From Bacteroidota bacterium (GTDB taxonomy: Bacteria; Bacteroidota; Bacteroidia; NS11-12g; UBA955): a DNA stretch of 64,000 bases. The stretch is taken from the NCBI GenBank assembly GCA_016787485.1, contig JAEUUL010000032.1, positions 1-64,000 on the forward strand, read 5' to 3'. Of the stretch, positions 14,241 to 22,378 are shown in pieces (the first letter of the stretch is position 1; each line of letters begins with the position of its first letter). The position numbers and the translations under genes are program-made. The notes beneath the pieces were generated by a model. That model worked only from the letters and a program-made list of their open reading frames with translations, had not been told where the DNA came from and did no database searches.

Positions 14241-14343
14241 CAGTGAAAGCAGGAAGATATTTCGGGTTATGTAGGAGATCGGGCGAAGATAATCACAGGT
14301 AAACCCGGTTGGCGTAAATTATATCATAATCGTCAAGTGGCCA

Positions 14344-14523
14344 ATGATTGCGCAGGTTTCTTACAGATTCAATTCAGGTCTCTGCGGAACAATCCCGGGG
14401 CTCAGATTCATACGGACCGGTAACAACCAAAAAATCATCAAATACGCCATTGACTCAGAAAAACCGGCTTTGGCTAATTCCATAAAAACCATAGCTGAAG
14501 AGCCCTCTAGATTTGAATCATGA
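14344..14523 (+). CDS. Small ORF, 59 aa, overlapping the GRAS gene by ATGA
   Basis: An ATG at 14344 opens a 59-codon frame whose TGA (14521-14523) overlaps the ATG of the GRAS gene in an ATGA junction, the hallmark of translational coupling. The peptide begins MIAQVSYRFNSGLCGTIPG, has one cysteine, a basic middle (RTGNNQKIIKY) and an acidic-ended tail. It has no signal peptide and no similarity I recognise. It could be a real small subunit, a peptide substrate for the two enzymes downstream, or a regulatory leader. The upstream region has no strong -7 motif. A purely accidental ORF cannot be excluded. Confidence 0.4.
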   Translation: MIAQVSYRFNSGLCGTIPGLRFIRTGNNQKIIKYAIDSEKPALANSIKTIAEEPSRFES

Positions 14524-15593
14524 AAGCAACAAAGCAGACTCCCCTGCAGGGTGCCATAGGCGAACTCCTGAATAACATCCCCGACGGATTCACCGATGCC
14601 AGCCGCGGGGAATTGCAGTCCCTGTTTAACCATATAATGACTGGCACGCAAACCGCATCGCGTGAACTGATGGTTCAGCTTCTGGCAAACGCCGTAAGCA
14701 AACGGTTCAATCCGGCATCGGAAGAGCAACATATTTATCTGAAGAATGACGAAGTCCCTCAGATACAACTCTTCAATATCCTCATTGAGAAATTTCCATT
14801 TGTAAAATACAGCCAGATTATCACAAACAAGGCAATTACAGAAACCATCGGTGACTCAAAAGAAGCAGCTATCATCGATATAGGAATAGGACAAGGTGTG
14901 CAAATGCTGCATGTGATAGAACTTGCCAAAAAACTTCCCAAACTGAAAAAACTGAACATAATAGGAATAGAACCATTTTCTGATGCATTAATACAGGCAG
15001 AAAAGAACATTATGGCACAGGCTAAAAATGTGCATTTCACCATTGAATTTACAGGGGTTAATAACTTTGCAGAAAATGTGGATTTCAGTCCTTTCATCAA
15101 CATTTCAGATACATTGATTATTAACGCTTCACTGGCACTGCACCATATTCAAACAGAAGAGAAACGGAGCCAGATTATATCAAAATTCAAACAACTGAAT
15201 CCGGCCGCATTCCTGCTGATTGAACCCAACGTAAATCACTATGAAACAAATTTCTGCAACCGCTTTATCAATTGCTTCAATCATTATTATAATCTTTTCC
15301 TGGTCATTGACCGGCTGGATATAGATGAAAAAGATAAAAATGCACTGAAATTGTTTTTTGGCCGCGAAATATCTGATGTTATTGGCAAGGAAGAAAAAGA
15401 CCGGTTTGAAAAGCATGAAAAAGCAACCAAATGGATTGAAAGAATGCAGAATGCCGGCTTTTCATTAAACACATCCATGCTCAAATCACCAGTAGAATCA
15501 GAATCAGGCGTGGATATCCGGATTCACAACGAGGGATTTATGGGATTTACACATCAGATCGAAACCATACTGGCAGTAATGTACGCCAATTGA
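14520..15593 (+). CDS. Bacterial GRAS-domain protein (Rossmann methyltransferase-like), 357 aa
   Basis: The order of motifs follows the plant GRAS family. FPFVKYSQIITNKAITETI (92-110) corresponds to the end of the leucine-rich region. AAIIDIGIGQGVQ (116-128) corresponds to VHIID and to the SAM-binding loop of methyltransferases. LALHHIQ (205-211), then LLIEPNVNHYETNF (232-245) and FFGREISDVIG (279-289) correspond to PFYRE, and DRFEKHE...KW (294-305) to RVER. The acidic residue of NIIGIEP (146-152) is where SAM methyltransferases bind the ribose. Bacterial GRAS proteins have been described and proposed to be small-molecule methylases. The gene is A+T-richer than its neighbours and is followed after 10 bp by the aminotransferase. 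The substrate is unknown. Confidence 0.85.
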   Translation: MKATKQTPLQGAIGELLNNIPDGFTDASRGELQSLFNHIMTGTQTASRELMVQLLANAVSKRFNPASEEQHIYLKNDEVPQIQLFNILIEKFPFVKYSQIITNKAITETIGDSKEAAIIDIGIGQGVQMLHVIELAKKLPKLKKLNIIGIEPFSDALIQAEKNIMAQAKNVHFTIEFTGVNNFAENVDFSPFINISDTLIINASLALHHIQTEEKRSQIISKFKQLNPAAFLLIEPNVNHYETNFCNRFINCFNHYYNLFLVIDRLDIDEKDKNALKLFFGREISDVIGKEEKDRFEKHEKATKWIERMQNAGFSLNTSMLKSPVESESGVDIRIHNEGFMGFTHQIETILAVMYAN

Positions 15594-15603
15594 GCATATT
15601 CAA

Positions 15604-16737
15604 ATGAAAATAATCATGAATTCTTTCGCACCTGATTCAATTGTATCCGCAGATTTCTTTGAAATACCTGAGGTAATTTCCAGTACAATACAACTGGATA
15701 AAAATGAACAACCTGAAGATGTTAGCGATGAAATGAAAAGACGCGTGCTGAATAAATTGTTTCATACAGAATGGAACAGATATCCTGCTGCAGATTACAG
15801 TGAGATTGAATCAAAAATAGCCCATTACAGCGGACTGCAACCGGACAATATTGTGCTCGGTGCGGGATCTGCCAACATTATAAGTGCAATGCTCAATTAT
15901 TTTGCAATCAATAAGAAGCGTATTCACATTGTTCAACCCTCATATACACTGTTTGATCAACATTGCAAAAATTATGGTATAGCCTATGAACCCTGGTATC
16001 TGAATGAAGAACTGGAATTTGATTATAAAAACATGCCGGAACTTGATAAAAATTCAGTGCTTATCATTACTTCTCCGAACAATCCGGTGGGCAATTCCAT
16101 AGAAACATACAAACTGGAAGAAATTCTTATGATGCACCCTTATACTATGGTCATTCTGGACAATGTATACAATGAATTTTGTAATTCTGATTTCACATCA
16201 CTGGTAAAGAAATACAATAATCTAATTGTGCTGAGATCATTTTCCAAAGCATTTCCTGCGGCTGGTTTGCGTTTGGGATATCTTTGTGCTCCGCGACACA
16301 TAAAGCCAATATTGAAATCACTGATTCTGCCCTATTCCATCAATGAGTTTTCCCTGATTTTTGCCCGTGAAATATTGTTTGACAAAAAATTCATGGAATC
16401 TTCAAAAAGAAAAGTTGAAGAAATGATCCATAACAGGAATAAACTCATTGATTCCATCACCAGACGATTTGATAAAGATACCATTCGGGTATATCCTTCC
16501 AGCGGTAACTTCCTATTGCTTCGGGTTATCAATGAATCAGACTTTACCAAACTAATGACCGATCTGGAAAAAGGTGGAATGAAAGTACTCAATGGTTCTC
16601 ATTTTCCTTTACTGAAAAATACATTACGGGTGTCCATAGGCAATATGGAACACAATGAATTGTTTCTCAGATGTCTGGTCAATTGTATGGAAAACAACTT
16701 TATAAAAAATCAAAACATCGAAGCAACTTTTGATTGA
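15604..16737 (+). CDS. PLP-dependent aminotransferase, HisC-like (fold type I), 377 aa
   Basis: Class I/II aminotransferase of the histidinol-phosphate aminotransferase-like group. Visible are LDKNEQP (31-37), the SPNNPVG motif (157-163), DNVYNEF (186-192, with Asp186 and Tyr189 contacting PLP), the Schiff-base lysine Lys215 in SFSKAF, and GLRLGY (221-226). It transfers an amino group between an amino acid and a keto acid. It is unlikely to be the histidine-biosynthetic enzyme since no his genes are near. ATG at 15604 or 15616 could both serve. It is 10 bp downstream of the GRAS gene and shares its low G+C content, so the two probably act in one pathway. Confidence 0.88.
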   Translation: MKIIMNSFAPDSIVSADFFEIPEVISSTIQLDKNEQPEDVSDEMKRRVLNKLFHTEWNRYPAADYSEIESKIAHYSGLQPDNIVLGAGSANIISAMLNYFAINKKRIHIVQPSYTLFDQHCKNYGIAYEPWYLNEELEFDYKNMPELDKNSVLIITSPNNPVGNSIETYKLEEILMMHPYTMVILDNVYNEFCNSDFTSLVKKYNNLIVLRSFSKAFPAAGLRLGYLCAPRHIKPILKSLILPYSINEFSLIFAREILFDKKFMESSKRKVEEMIHNRNKLIDSITRRFDKDTIRVYPSSGNFLLLRVINESDFTKLMTDLEKGGMKVLNGSHFPLLKNTLRVSIGNMEHNELFLRCLVNCMENNFIKNQNIEATFD

Positions 16738-16821: not shown

Positions 16822-16953
16822 CGAAGGACCGAAACGTAAGACTATTCTGGCATTCCCTTCATCCGGGCGGACCGGAACCTGACTTTTGTTTGTTTGAACA
16901 ACATTTTTTGCAAAATTCGCAGATGTTTGCATGATACGCACAGGCAAACGGCT

Positions 16954-16961
16954 TAATTTTG
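16954..16961 (+). promoter_or_regulatory. -7 promoter element of the RND operon
   Basis: Reads TAATTTTG, matching TAnnTTTG, 8 nt before the ATG at 16970. It supports starting the adaptor at 16970 rather than at the ATG at 16931, and suggests a leaderless or nearly leaderless mRNA. Confidence 0.5.
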
Positions 16962-16969
16962 TGACTTGT

Positions 16970-18025
16970 ATGGGGTATTTCATATTCACCGGCTTCCGGC
17001 TGATTTGTTTCTTTTTCGCAATGGTTCTTTTTTGTACTTCTTGTGGAGGTGGTGGCAAACCAGCTGCTAAAACGCAGGGGCCGGTGCCCATTGATGTGTT
17101 GGTGGTTTCAATCACTGAAATTGAGGAAGTGGTAGACGCCAACGGGACTGTATTGGCCGGAGAAACAGTGGAATTACACCCTGAAAGCAGCGGAAGACTA
17201 TCTTTCTTAAATATGCCTGATGGAGGGACTGTGTCGGCTGGCGCGGTGCTGGCGCGTATAAATGATGCTGAAATTCTGGGACAAATTGCCCAGCAGCAGG
17301 CCGGTTTGGCTTTGGCCATGAAGAACGAATCCCGGCTGAAGCAGCTTCTGGCAGTAAATGCAATCCCGCAGGCGGAATACGATGCTGCCCAAACACAGGT
17401 ATTGACCATACAGGCAACCTTACAAACCCTGCAGGCTCAGGCTGAAAAACTGGTCGTAAAAGCACCCTTTGCAGGACAATTGGGATTGCGCAAGGTGAGT
17501 CCGGGTGCATATGTCAGTCCGGCAACAATTCTGGGCACCTTGCAACAAACCTATCCGTTGAAGGTGGATTTTGCCCTGCCGGATGTGTATGTATCCCTGC
17601 TGGAAAAAAACAGTACACTCTCACTGCTGTCTTCAAACGGAACCCGCACATGGCCTGCAAAAATTATTGCCACAGAATCGAGGGTGAATGCAGAAAACCG
17701 GAATCTCACCGTGCGCGCTGCCATAGAAGGAACGGGACTAAAACCAGGGGAATACGTGACTGCACGTTTCAAACAAAAACAAAAAGGAATTCTTATACCC
17801 ACCAATGCACTGATACCAGAAGCAAGCAGCAACAAAGTGATTGTGGTAAAAAATGGTACTGGTAAACCGGTGCCTGTGAAGACCGGCACACGCGGACCTG
17901 AATATGTGCAAATCACATCGGGGCTTACCGAAGGCGATAGTGTGGTGGTTACAGGGGTATTGTTCGTAAGGCCCAAATCTCCCCTTAAAGTGCGCAGTGT
18001 AAAAACCCTGGCTGAACTGAAATGA
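16970..18025 (+). CDS. RND efflux periplasmic adaptor (membrane fusion protein), lipoprotein, 351 aa
   Basis: Links the inner-membrane RND pump to the outer-membrane channel. N-terminal lipoprotein signal with Cys25 in CTSCGGGG. The barrel-sandwich (lipoyl-like) halves are seen in GRLSFLNMPDGGTVSAGAVLARINDAEI and KLVVKAPFAGQLGLRKVSPGAYV, separated by an alpha-helical hairpin (AQQQAGLALAMKNESRLKQLL...AQAEKL). A beta-barrel domain and a C-terminal domain (GLTEGDSVVVTGV) follow. The ATG at 16970 is preferred over one at 16931 because of the -7 element between them. The stop overlaps the pump gene by ATGA. Confidence 0.93.
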   Translation: MGYFIFTGFRLICFFFAMVLFCTSCGGGGKPAAKTQGPVPIDVLVVSITEIEEVVDANGTVLAGETVELHPESSGRLSFLNMPDGGTVSAGAVLARINDAEILGQIAQQQAGLALAMKNESRLKQLLAVNAIPQAEYDAAQTQVLTIQATLQTLQAQAEKLVVKAPFAGQLGLRKVSPGAYVSPATILGTLQQTYPLKVDFALPDVYVSLLEKNSTLSLLSSNGTRTWPAKIIATESRVNAENRNLTVRAAIEGTGLKPGEYVTARFKQKQKGILIPTNALIPEASSNKVIVVKNGTGKPVPVKTGTRGPEYVQITSGLTEGDSVVVTGVLFVRPKSPLKVRSVKTLAELK

Positions 18026-21000
18026 ACATTTCAGAACTATCGCTGAAAAGACCGGTTCTCACGGTGGTGATGAATCTGATGTTGCTGCTTTTTGGCGGTA
18101 TCGGATTCTATTTTCTCGCAGTGCGTGAGTACCCGGCAATTGATCCGCCTACGATTACTGTGCGCACAGCATACGAAGGTGCCAATGCGGATGTAGTGGA
18201 AAGTCAGATCACCGAACCACTTGAAAAATCAATCAACGGGATACCCGGCATCCGCACCATTACAAGCAGCAGCAGTGTAGGGGTGAGTAACATCACTGTG
18301 GAATTCAATGTAGAAGCAAACCTGGAGGCTGCGGCCAATGACGTGCGCGACAAGGTGAGCCAGGCAGTGCGGAACTTGCCCCAGGATATAGATGCGCCAC
18401 CGGTGGTCACAAAAAGCGATGCCAACAGCGATTTTATTCTGTTGCTGGCTGTGCAGAGCCCCACCAAAGGATTGCTGGAACTGAGTGATTATGCAGAAAA
18501 TGTATTGGTACCTCGCATGCAAACCATTCCTGAGGTGAGTTCAGTGAACATTTTCGGCCAGAAAAGACCATCCATGCGCATATGGCTGCAGCCCTCCCGC
18601 ATGCAGGCTGCCGGCGTGGCCATGAACGATGTGCAAACAGCACTGAACCGTGAAAATGTGGAGATGCCCAGTGGGAAAATTTATGGAAACCGCACAGAAC
18701 TAAGCATACGTGTGCTGGGTAAACTGAGTACAGAAGCCGACTTCAGGAATCTGATACTGAAGGAAGACGCCACAGGAATTACCCGGCTTGGAGATGTGGC
18801 ACGCGTGGAACTGGGTCCGGAAAACCTGGAACAAAACTGGCGTCTGAACGGATTGCACGGTGTGGGTCTTGCCATCATTCCACAGCCGGGAGCCAATTAC
18901 ATCAACATTTCCAATGAGTATGAAAAGCGGCTGACGGAAATTGAAAAAGACAACAAAACGGACATACAGTTTGCAACACTCATAGACAATACAAGCAACG
19001 TGCGCCGGTCCATTAAGGAAGTGGGCGAAACCCTGCTCATTGCCTTTCTGCTCGTGGTGCTGGTTATATATCTGTTTTTCAGGAACTGGCTCATAGCGCT
19101 GCGGCCTCTGATAGATATTCCTATCAGCCTTGTAGCGACTTTTTTCGTCATGTATCTGCTGGGATTCTCCATCAATATCCTTTCCTTGTTGGGTATAGTG
19201 CTGGCAACCGGACTTGTGGTGGACGACGGCATTGTGGTTACCGAAAACATTTTCCGCAAGCTTGAACAAGGCATGCCTGTGCGCAAAGCAGCACTGGAGG
19301 GGAGTCGTGAAATTCTTTTTGCGGTGCTCAGTACAAGCATCACTCTGGCCATAGTGTTTCTTCCGGTAATTTTCCTGCAGGGATTTGTAGGTAGTCTCTT
19401 TCGCGAGTTTGGGATAGTAGTGGCTGTGGCTGTTCTTGTTTCAGCCTTTGTTTCACTCACAATCACCCCTGTGCTGAATGTTGTTCTGAACCGCAGAGGG
19501 CAGAACCACGGATGGTTTTATAATGTTACAGAGCCCTTCTTTACCGGCATGGAAAACGGTTATCTACGCACCCTTACCGGCTTTATGCGCAAACGATGGG
19601 TTGCATGGCTCATTGTAGGATTTTGTGTGCTGGTCATATTTTTGGTGGGCAAACAATTGCCAACAGAGCTCGCACCGCTGGAGGATAAAAGCAGTATCCG
19701 GTTCAGTATCAGCGGACCGGAAGGCGCCAGCTATGAATACATGGCAAAAGCGGGTGAACAAATGGGGGATTTTCTGCTGGATTCTGTTCCTGAAAAATCA
19801 TTTGTTTTCTCAGCGGTTCCCAGTTTTTTCGGGACTGGAGTAAACAGCGGTTTTGCACGCATTGGACTGGTACCGCCCCATGAACGAAAAAAATCACAAA
19901 GCGAACTTGCCCGTGAATTGGGTGGAAAACTCAGCCGGTTCAACAATCTTCGTATTTTCCCCATTGAAGAGCAGACTATATCTGTAGGTCTGGGCTCCAG
20001 AGGCTCTTTGCCAGTTCAATATGTTTTGCAGAATCTGGATTTTGAGAAAATAAAAACGGTCATTCCAAAATTCATGGCAGCTGCGCGGGAAGACAAAACC
20101 TTTGCCAATGTGGATGTGAACCTTAAATTCAACAAACCGGAAACCGATGTCATCATTGACCGAATCAAGGCCCGTGAACTGGGACTTTCAGTAACCGATA
20201 TCGGACAGGTGATACAAAGTGCATTCGGTGGCCGGCGGGCAGCCTATTTTCTCATGAATGGCAGGCAATACCAGGTAATAAGCCAGGTAGAGCTGGATGA
20301 AAGGCAAAAACCGGATGACATAGCCCGGCTATATGTGCGCAACAATGCAGGAGAGAACATTTCACTGGCCAGTGTGGTGCAATTGGTGCCCAATGCAAAC
20401 CCTCCCACCCTTTATCATTACAACCGTTATAAATCTGCCACCATCAGCGCCAGCCTGGCAGAAGGCAAAACCATAGGAGACGGGGTAAAATCCATGCAAG
20501 CCATAGGGAAAAAACTGCTCGATGAAAGTTTTGAAACGAGTCTGAGTGGTCCCAGCCGCGATTTTCAGGAAAGCAGTGGCAACACTCTTTTTGCTTTTGT
20601 ACTCGCACTGGTGCTTATTTACCTTGTGCTGGCCGCACAATTCGAAAGTTTCCGGGATCCGTTCACCATCATGCTCACTGTACCACTGGCCATGGCCGGT
20701 GCACTGGGAGCCCTGTTCCTGTTTAGCCAAACCCTGAATATCTTTTCACAGATAGGAATGATTATGCTCATTGGCCTGGTTACCAAAAACGGAATATTGA
20801 TTGTGGAATTTGCCAATAAAAAACGGGAAACAGGTATGGACCTGAAAGCTGCTGTGCTGGAAGCAGCCAGTCAGCGGTTGCGCCCCATCCTTATGACCAG
20901 TCTGGCCACATCACTGGGCGCTTTGCCCATAGCACTCAGTCTGGGAGCCAGCGCCAGCAGCCGCATACCATTGGGTATAGTTTTGGTGGGTGGCATCCTC

Positions 21001-21102
21001 TTTTCCCTGATTCTTACATTGTATGTGATACCGGCCATTTATACTTATATATCACGACACCGTGCCCAAACTGAGGAAAAAGCTTATGAAAACCTGGGGT
21101 AA
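18022..21102 (+). CDS. RND efflux transporter, AcrB/HAE1 family, 1026 aa
   Basis: Inner-membrane proton-driven pump of a tripartite efflux system. The length and two-fold repeated plan (12 membrane helices with two large periplasmic loops) are normal. The N-terminus (ISELSLKRPVLTVVMNLMLLLFG) is typical. The proton-relay acid pair of helix 4 is Asp401-Asp402 in GLVVDDGIVVTENI. The second half contains GLVTKNGILIVEFANKKRE in helix 10 with the conserved lysine. It probably exports hydrophobic compounds. Translationally coupled to the adaptor (ATGA), and its 3' end overlaps the TolC gene. Confidence 0.96.
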   Translation: MNISELSLKRPVLTVVMNLMLLLFGGIGFYFLAVREYPAIDPPTITVRTAYEGANADVVESQITEPLEKSINGIPGIRTITSSSSVGVSNITVEFNVEANLEAAANDVRDKVSQAVRNLPQDIDAPPVVTKSDANSDFILLLAVQSPTKGLLELSDYAENVLVPRMQTIPEVSSVNIFGQKRPSMRIWLQPSRMQAAGVAMNDVQTALNRENVEMPSGKIYGNRTELSIRVLGKLSTEADFRNLILKEDATGITRLGDVARVELGPENLEQNWRLNGLHGVGLAIIPQPGANYINISNEYEKRLTEIEKDNKTDIQFATLIDNTSNVRRSIKEVGETLLIAFLLVVLVIYLFFRNWLIALRPLIDIPISLVATFFVMYLLGFSINILSLLGIVLATGLVVDDGIVVTENIFRKLEQGMPVRKAALEGSREILFAVLSTSITLAIVFLPVIFLQGFVGSLFREFGIVVAVAVLVSAFVSLTITPVLNVVLNRRGQNHGWFYNVTEPFFTGMENGYLRTLTGFMRKRWVAWLIVGFCVLVIFLVGKQLPTELAPLEDKSSIRFSISGPEGASYEYMAKAGEQMGDFLLDSVPEKSFVFSAVPSFFGTGVNSGFARIGLVPPHERKKSQSELARELGGKLSRFNNLRIFPIEEQTISVGLGSRGSLPVQYVLQNLDFEKIKTVIPKFMAAAREDKTFANVDVNLKFNKPETDVIIDRIKARELGLSVTDIGQVIQSAFGGRRAAYFLMNGRQYQVISQVELDERQKPDDIARLYVRNNAGENISLASVVQLVPNANPPTLYHYNRYKSATISASLAEGKTIGDGVKSMQAIGKKLLDESFETSLSGPSRDFQESSGNTLFAFVLALVLIYLVLAAQFESFRDPFTIMLTVPLAMAGALGALFLFSQTLNIFSQIGMIMLIGLVTKNGILIVEFANKKRETGMDLKAAVLEAASQRLRPILMTSLATSLGALPIALSLGASASSRIPLGIVLVGGILFSLILTLYVIPAIYTYISRHRAQTEEKAYENLG

Positions 21103-22378
21103 ATATCTGGCCATTTTATTTCCTGCCGGTTTATCCGGACAAACACAAATGAACCTGAACGATGTGGTAAACACCGTATTGCAGAAAAACCTGCAGATAC
21201 GGATTGCCATGGTGGAAAAGGAGAGTGCCAGACAGGCCAATACCTCTGGGAATGCCGGCGCACTGCCGTCGGTTGGGATTAACATTACCGACAATGCCTC
21301 CTACAACCGCATTTATCAAAAACTGGCCAATGGCACGGAAATAAGTCGTGCCGGAGCCGCAGCCAATAGTTTGGGTGCCAATGTTACCGCAGGATACACG
21401 CTTTTCAATGGCTACCGTATTCAAGCTGCTAAGCAGCGACTTGAATACCTTGAAACACTGGGTGAAGCCAATGCGCAGATACAAATTCAGCAAAATATAG
21501 CACTGGCTATGCGGCAGTATTACAATGTGATCCAACAGCAGCAAAACCTGCGCACTCAGGTACAACTCTATGCATTGAATACCGAAAAATACAAAATGGT
21601 ACAGGCGCGCAGGGAGGCTGGCCTTTCTGGTGAGCCAGACCTTTTGCAGGCAGAAATCGACCTGAATCAGGCCCAACTAAACAGGCAGCAGCAGGAACAG
21701 GCGCTGCACAACGCCTATACCGGGTTGTTGCTTACCATGGGCATGCCCCCGGAAACCCAACTGCTCATCGCAGATACCATGATACCCGCGCCCATGCTGC
21801 AACATGACAGCCTTTGGGCCGCGTTGCAGCAAAATCCGCAACGGCTTGCAGCAGCAAAACAAACTGCTATAGCAAAAACTCAGCAGAGAGAACTGGAAGG
21901 ATTGCGTTACCCGTCTCTGCGCTTAAATGGTGGATATGCCCTCAGTAACAACAACAGCGCCGCCGGTTTTAGCCTCATTAGCCAGAGCAGTGGTCCGTTT
22001 ATGGGTATAAATGCACAAATACCCCTTTTTACCAGCAGCACTGGCAGCCAGATAGCTGTTTCTAAAAACCAGACCGCCATTCAGGCTCTGAAAGAAGAGC
22101 AATTCCAACAAGTGCTTGAAAATACCTTTTACCGCCAATGGCAGGAATATACCCTGGCCCTGGATCAGCTGAAATTACAACAAAGCACCACAGCACTTGC
22201 CCGGCGGATGTTACAAGTAAGTGTGGAAACCTACCGGCTGGGACACAGCACACTGCTTGAACTAAAATCTGCCGAAAGCAGCTTTGCCATGAGTCTGCAT
22301 CAACAATCCCAATTATCAGCTGCGGTAAAAATGGCCGAGATCAGTCTTTTGGAATTGTCAGGACAACTTGGACGTTAA
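21086..22378 (+). CDS. TolC-family outer membrane efflux channel, 430 aa
   Basis: Signal peptide (MKTWGKYLAILFPAGLSGQ), then two OEP-type halves with long heptad-bearing helices (ALAMRQYYNVIQQQQNLRTQVQLYALNTEKYKMVQARREAGLS; LEELRYPS-like turn; RRMLQVSVETYRLGHSTLLELKSAES). It forms the trimeric outer-membrane/periplasmic tunnel for the RND pump. A GTG at 21062 is in frame, but the ATG at 21086 gives a proper signal peptide and a 17-bp overlap with the pump gene, so it is preferred. It completes the three-gene operon. Confidence 0.93.
   Translation: MKTWGKYLAILFPAGLSGQTQMNLNDVVNTVLQKNLQIRIAMVEKESARQANTSGNAGALPSVGINITDNASYNRIYQKLANGTEISRAGAAANSLGANVTAGYTLFNGYRIQAAKQRLEYLETLGEANAQIQIQQNIALAMRQYYNVIQQQQNLRTQVQLYALNTEKYKMVQARREAGLSGEPDLLQAEIDLNQAQLNRQQQEQALHNAYTGLLLTMGMPPETQLLIADTMIPAPMLQHDSLWAALQQNPQRLAAAKQTAIAKTQQRELEGLRYPSLRLNGGYALSNNNSAAGFSLISQSSGPFMGINAQIPLFTSSTGSQIAVSKNQTAIQALKEEQFQQVLENTFYRQWQEYTLALDQLKLQQSTTALARRMLQVSVETYRLGHSTLLELKSAESSFAMSLHQQSQLSAAVKMAEISLLELSGQLGR

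Follow-up and report, generated by a model that had tools for sequence, protein, structure and literature searches.

Bacterial GRAS proteins were reportedly predicted by Zhang, Iyer and Aravind in 2012 to be small-molecule methylases, and a partnership between a keto-acid C-methyltransferase and an aminotransferase is an established piece of biochemical logic. MppJ, SgvM and MrsA transfer methyl groups to carbon atoms of ketoacids, and SgvM holds zinc on H244 and H296 (PMC10502145); for the plant GRAS regulators, including DELLA, SCARECROW and SHORT-ROOT, the proposed origin is a gene transferred from soil bacteria (PMC9942845, PMC10699852). In the literature that we searched, which lies outside most subscription papers, we found no report that the function of a bacterial GRAS protein had been assayed, nor any of an aminotransferase partner or a regulon for one. 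The locus described here shares its family, predicted fold and SAM motif with the GRAS proteins of the 2012 prediction, and extends beyond that prediction in having a conserved aminotransferase partner and, among relatives, a LytTR regulon. It is like the MppJ, SgvM and MrsA type in that a predicted SAM methyltransferase has an aminotransferase as its partner, but here that enzyme is a GRAS protein and no nonribosomal peptide context was seen.

In the window (the whole stretch of 64,000 nucleotides that was analysed) a GRAS-domain protein of 357 aa, predicted to be a SAM-dependent small-molecule methyltransferase, is encoded at positions 14520-15593 of the forward strand, and a HisC-like fold-type I PLP aminotransferase of 377 aa follows on the same strand at 15604-16737 after a gap of 10 bp. 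The GRAS start overlaps by 4 bp a forward-strand open reading frame of 59 codons (14344-14523). The first-pass annotation had given these coordinates, the overlap, the gap and the head-to-tail order correctly. The two genes form a conserved operon, and we put at about even the chance that they encode a GRAS methyltransferase and an aminotransferase working on one shared pair of amino acid and alpha-keto acid. The aminotransferase would turn the amino acid into the alpha-keto acid, the GRAS protein would methylate it, and the aminotransferase would then convert the methylated keto acid back to yield a methylated amino acid as the product.

The assignment to the GRAS family, proposed in the first-pass annotation from motifs, is borne out by the profile search, in which PF03514 scores 139 bits (E 2.3e-40) against a curated cut-off of 27, and the protein also matches plant GRAS structures by sequence. 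An AlphaFold2 model (pLDDT 87.8), made from an alignment of 31 rows from which a plasmid-derived row was left out, superimposes on the plant GRAS domains of SCL3, SCL7, RGA and SHR with Z of 32-35; the match to SCL3 has Z 34.8 over 337 residues at an rmsd of 3.5 and takes in a helical cap and a Rossmann-like core. Next after the plant domains come SAM methyltransferases, with Z of 15-21. A much stronger profile match than that of the window protein is found in a distant genome of the same phylum (L009/L003, G231), whose GRAS protein scores 237.7 bits over positions 3-370, nearly full length, and is a candidate for the closest relative of plant GRAS.

The methyltransferase features anticipated in the first-pass annotation are present. 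SAM-binding motif I (D-I-G-I-G-Q-G, residues 120-126; 14877-14897, forward strand) and a putative active-site motif IV (N-A-S-L-A-L-H-H, residues 202-209; 15123-15146, forward strand) were located in an alignment of 31 bacterial homologues, all of which keep D120, G122, G124, N202, L207, H208, H209 and E235, with G126 and the acidic motif-II residue E151 nearly invariant. In a profile alignment the bacterial D-I-G-I-G-x-G stands against D-F-G-L-K-Q-G in DELLA proteins and D-L-D-A-S-E-P in SCL3, so that the position of G124 is occupied by K and S, respectively; the acidic residue of motif II is likewise lost in both. Because the bacterial proteins retain SAM motif residues that DELLA and SCL3 lack, they look catalytic, and motif and model together predict that they are SAM-dependent small-molecule methyltransferases. 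The same residues make it decidedly unlikely that the GRAS protein regulates by binding a ligand without catalysis, in the manner of plants, even though its closest solved structures are plant GRAS domains; it shares that domain with the DELLA, SCR, SHR and SCL regulators, but unlike them it has the SAM motif and carries no DELLA-type N-terminal extension.

Which atom the GRAS enzyme would methylate is a matter on which the structural comparisons diverge. By Foldseek the first non-GRAS fold is MppJ (4m6x, 4kib; E ∼7e-10), with SgvM and MrsA further down, although the likeness to MppJ is weak (TM-score ∼0.46) and CysG, CmoA and EgtD are about equal or better by Z. VIA-align places MM_2633, CysG (whose substrate is of the guanidine type) and YecO/CmoA at the head of its non-GRAS matches, and EgtD, which N-methylates histidine, reaches Z 16.6, on a par with SgvM at 16.3; MppJ and MrsA are not among the best 50 matches listed, which is not evidence against them. 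The best NCBIfam match, 2-ketoarginine methyltransferase (TIGR04543), is very weak (E 0.001, 18 bits against a cut-off of 425). By analogy with MppJ, SgvM and MrsA we tentatively favour C-methylation beside the carbonyl, at rather less than even confidence. The VIA-align matches, EgtD included, point instead to methylation at oxygen or nitrogen in the aminotransferase product (on an amine, carboxylate, hydroxyl or guanidine), which would give another kind of modified amino-acid derivative; this we consider a lesser but real chance, given the first place of MppJ in Foldseek and the known association of keto-acid C-methyltransferases with aminotransferases. The invariant H208-H209 falls in the putative motif IV, and the LHH motif is a candidate counterpart of the zinc-binding histidines of SgvM.

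The partner gene product is a PLP aminotransferase with a HisC-like fold, as first proposed: it matches Aminotran_1_2 with 142 bits (E 4.8e-41), its model is closest to HisC (Z 35-36), the PLP-binding lysine K215 (in SFSKAF; 16246-16248, forward strand) is invariant in the family alignment, and the second substrate arginine of HisC is kept as R342, at the position of E. coli R335. That it is HisC itself is disfavoured, a point missed by the first-pass annotation. It scores 229 bits against the hisC equivalog, below the cut-off of 276.55, and a gapless HMMER alignment to 1fg3 places Leu329 (16588-16590, forward strand) at the site of E. coli HisC Arg322, a substitution nearly invariant across the GRAS-linked aminotransferase family. 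The M. tuberculosis aromatic aminotransferase ArAT uses an arginine numbered 322 as its arginine switch, which makes contact with the carboxylates of substrates (PMC4703992); this residue would occupy the same alignment position as Arg322 of E. coli HisC. The possibility that this enzyme is nevertheless the genome's histidinol-phosphate aminotransferase, with the GRAS gene an incidental neighbour, draws on the fact that no other protein encoded there matches hisC better. Yet no PF00815 match, and thus no detectable histidinol dehydrogenase (HisD), is found in this genome, which is 96% complete, whereas 13 of 14 control genomes have one; a role in histidine synthesis is therefore unlikely, and with the sub-threshold score, the lost arginine and the conserved pairing with GRAS we regard this explanation as very improbable.

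A single scan of 84,980 species genomes returned 34 GRAS relatives, nearly all of them in the Bacteroidota. Pairing was assessed in a set composed of the window and 25 loci at 39-65% GRAS identity, of which 25 were testable, and the aminotransferase is the next gene after GRAS in 23 of these 25 Bacteroidota loci; the count takes in L014, where it is found ∼1.7 kb further downstream, and L034, whose aminotransferase gene is cut off by the end of the contig. The aminotransferase is also present at L071, which came to light afterwards. Recurrence on this scale implies that the GRAS protein and the aminotransferase constitute one functional unit, and this part of the first-pass proposal, a unit that methylates and transaminates, is upheld to the extent that a protein with methyltransferase features and an aminotransferase recur together. 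The distances of the two proteins are correlated (r 0.72-0.84 over 20-21 loci), although in a mirror-tree comparison of this kind the correlation partly reflects shared ancestry. Strict congruence of the pairing with the GRAS tree was rejected, as the tree is poorly resolved and seven changes of pairing label are needed. The two loci in which GRAS stands without the aminotransferase, L019 and L035, have no close copy of it elsewhere in their genomes, and the GRAS genes of Runella and Skermanella are also unpaired, from which it follows that GRAS can act without this partner. Among the isolates carrying GRAS in this survey, most (Runella, Geofilum, Flavobacterium) have no close aminotransferase partner.

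Several loci show departures of other kinds. In Runella (L036, L037, L040, L041, L044), where the aminotransferase is missing, GRAS is situated between genes that by eye resemble those of 3-hydroxyacyl-CoA dehydrogenase and phosphotriesterase. Related proteins of ∼130-150 aa flank GRAS on one or both sides in L021, L022, L034, L035 and L039, and the L021 copy has no Pfam match. The aminotransferase gene of Breznakibacter (L034, G509:C31:43556-44224) is split over contig ends with a TAG in its distal part, broken either by insertion or by assembly. In Flavobacterium sp. SUN052 (L038) a diverged GRAS (34%) precedes an aminotransferase of another kind (29% identity), which may have been recruited independently.

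The first-pass annotation had gone further, treating the 59-codon reading frame as a third member of a cassette flanked by exporters. The flanking positions are as described: an MFS transporter gene (PF07690; 13110-14240, reverse strand) lies across the divergent intergenic region (14241-14519), and RND efflux genes for an adaptor, a pump and an outer-membrane factor (16931-22378, forward strand) begin 193 bp downstream of the aminotransferase. Neither exporter was found beside the pair in relatives, however: we found no MFS transporter near it and no RND cluster recurring among its conserved neighbours, so that both lie outside the conserved unit and the proposed export link is not supported. 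The small reading frame fares no better. It has no match in Pfam or NCBIfam and no homologue upstream of GRAS in the 34 related loci (tblastn at word size 2, low stringency) or elsewhere in its own genome; its codon signal is 0.03 bits per codon, against 0.16-0.38 in 12 neighbouring genes, and its GC1 is lower than its GC2, the opposite of every neighbouring gene. An open frame of 59 codons has a chance of ∼2.6% per frame at the local composition. With the relatives, the genome and the codon statistics all negative, a peptide gene was rejected here, and no conserved precursor of the kind expected in a RiPP cassette was found; the frame is probably no gene and lies within the GRAS promoter or leader region. 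Its position and 4-bp overlap are what could be cited in favour of its encoding a peptide or cofactor destined for modification and for export through the flanking pumps, and given the results for the frame and the exporters in relatives the probability of such a system is close to negligible.

A feature that does recur in relatives, and that the first-pass annotation had not included, is a LytTR two-component system with a common promoter element. A LytTR response regulator and a propeller-type sensor with Reg_prop, Y_Y_Y and His_kinase domains lie within ∼10 kb of GRAS, in several gene orders, at L011, L013, L014, L016, L018, L019, L023, L032 and L038, where the regulators are mostly 50-59% identical to that of L006 (the L019 genome), and also at L071; L024, L026, L029 and L033 have another LytTR regulator near GRAS. 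An orthologue at ≥55% identity is present in 13 of 14 examined genomes with the GRAS-aminotransferase pair, the L012 genome being without it, and elsewhere among genomes of the phylum only more distant LytTR regulators (47-52%) occur, in 3 of 395. Upstream of GRAS in these relatives is a direct repeat of approximately ACGCTTCATT-N11-ACGGTTCAAT, formed of 10-bp repeats with a period of 21 bp in 11 of 12 hand-aligned sites. Canonical LytTR sites are paired direct repeats of ∼9 bp set 10-13 bp apart (PMC11347149), a spacing with which the repeat agrees.

In 13 loci with the L016-type regulator the repeat ranks between 1 and 4 of 11,000-42,000 positions by leave-one-out PWM, with L017 an exception in which the regulator is present and the site is weak (rank 12). 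When only GRAS promoters were used to train the matrix, it also picked out this repeat ahead of the kinase genes of L013, L014, L016, L018, L023, L028 and L032, as well as ahead of the aminotransferase gene of L014, the locus in which that gene stands apart from GRAS. The shared element before GRAS, the kinase and the separated aminotransferase indicates that they form one regulon, often with a globin: a single-domain globin, verified with Pfam in the L023 copy, is located beside the kinase-regulator or GRAS-aminotransferase genes in five GRAS loci (L014, L016, L023, L025, L038). The operon of these relatives would thus be controlled by the nearby propeller-type histidine kinase and LytTR regulator.

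The window copy appears to be under other control. Its genome has no orthologue of the regulator (best match 33% identity), the LytTR-type repeat with its 21-bp period is missing from the divergent intergenic region, and the best PWM match upstream of GRAS ranks 456th in the window; the window and L012 genomes, the two found to be without the regulator, are those in which the repeat is missing. Other repeats upstream of the window GRAS are short, two-copy and unremarkable, and a scan for sigma-70 promoters and terminators gave results at chance level. GRAS itself is scarce, present in 2 of 97 near relatives (the window genome counted), 4 of 395 genomes of the phylum and 7 of 299 of one order, and found in none of 58 other genomes of the same family. 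The third-position GC of the two genes (0.43 and 0.35) is below the 0.46-0.55 of all neighbours tested. This lower GC and the absence from 58 same-family genomes suggest that the pair was acquired horizontally, and it may be a differently controlled copy; the sister of the window GRAS is in a Chitinophagaceae MAG and is 61% identical. Only two plasmid GRAS genes were found, distant and both from Skermanella, and no viral relatives were found in IMG/VR.

With a conserved partner enzyme, a regulon that can be defined and active-site motifs that are intact, the search for a substrate can be confined to amino acids or alpha-keto acids, and the ancestral biochemistry of the GRAS family becomes directly testable. 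The conserved pairing with an aminotransferase suggests that the bacterial ancestors of the plant GRAS regulators were enzymes methylating an amino-acid-like small molecule.

It is also conceivable that the pair makes a signal sensed by the linked kinase, the LytTR regulator driving both the GRAS-aminotransferase genes and its own kinase gene in an autoinduction circuit. The linkage recurs in several gene orders and the same repeat precedes GRAS and kinase genes. Among the 299 genomes of one order, moreover, five have both regulator and GRAS, seven the regulator only, two GRAS only and 285 neither, so that five are shared between 12 regulator and seven GRAS genomes (Fisher p 8e-7, uncorrected for phylogeny). 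On the other hand, the regulator is missing from the window genome, and in seven of the 12 regulator genomes it occurs without GRAS, which rules it out as an exclusive partner of GRAS; four of these that were examined keep the kinase and globin alongside. At L074, L075, L076 and L077 the kinase-regulator-globin set and the repeat occur with no GRAS detected, and because the set exists without GRAS, the pair is better described as a recurrent, optional member of the regulon. We therefore consider autoinduction unlikely, and slightly more so its fuller form, in which the pair would synthesize, for the linked propeller kinase and LytTR regulator, a methylated signal derived from an amino acid in a Bacteroidota autoinduction system, and the plant GRAS hormone-response regulators would descend from a bacterial signal-making enzyme.

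At L074-L077, nearby genes that bear the repeat encode apparent lipoproteins, outer-membrane proteins or secreted proteins.
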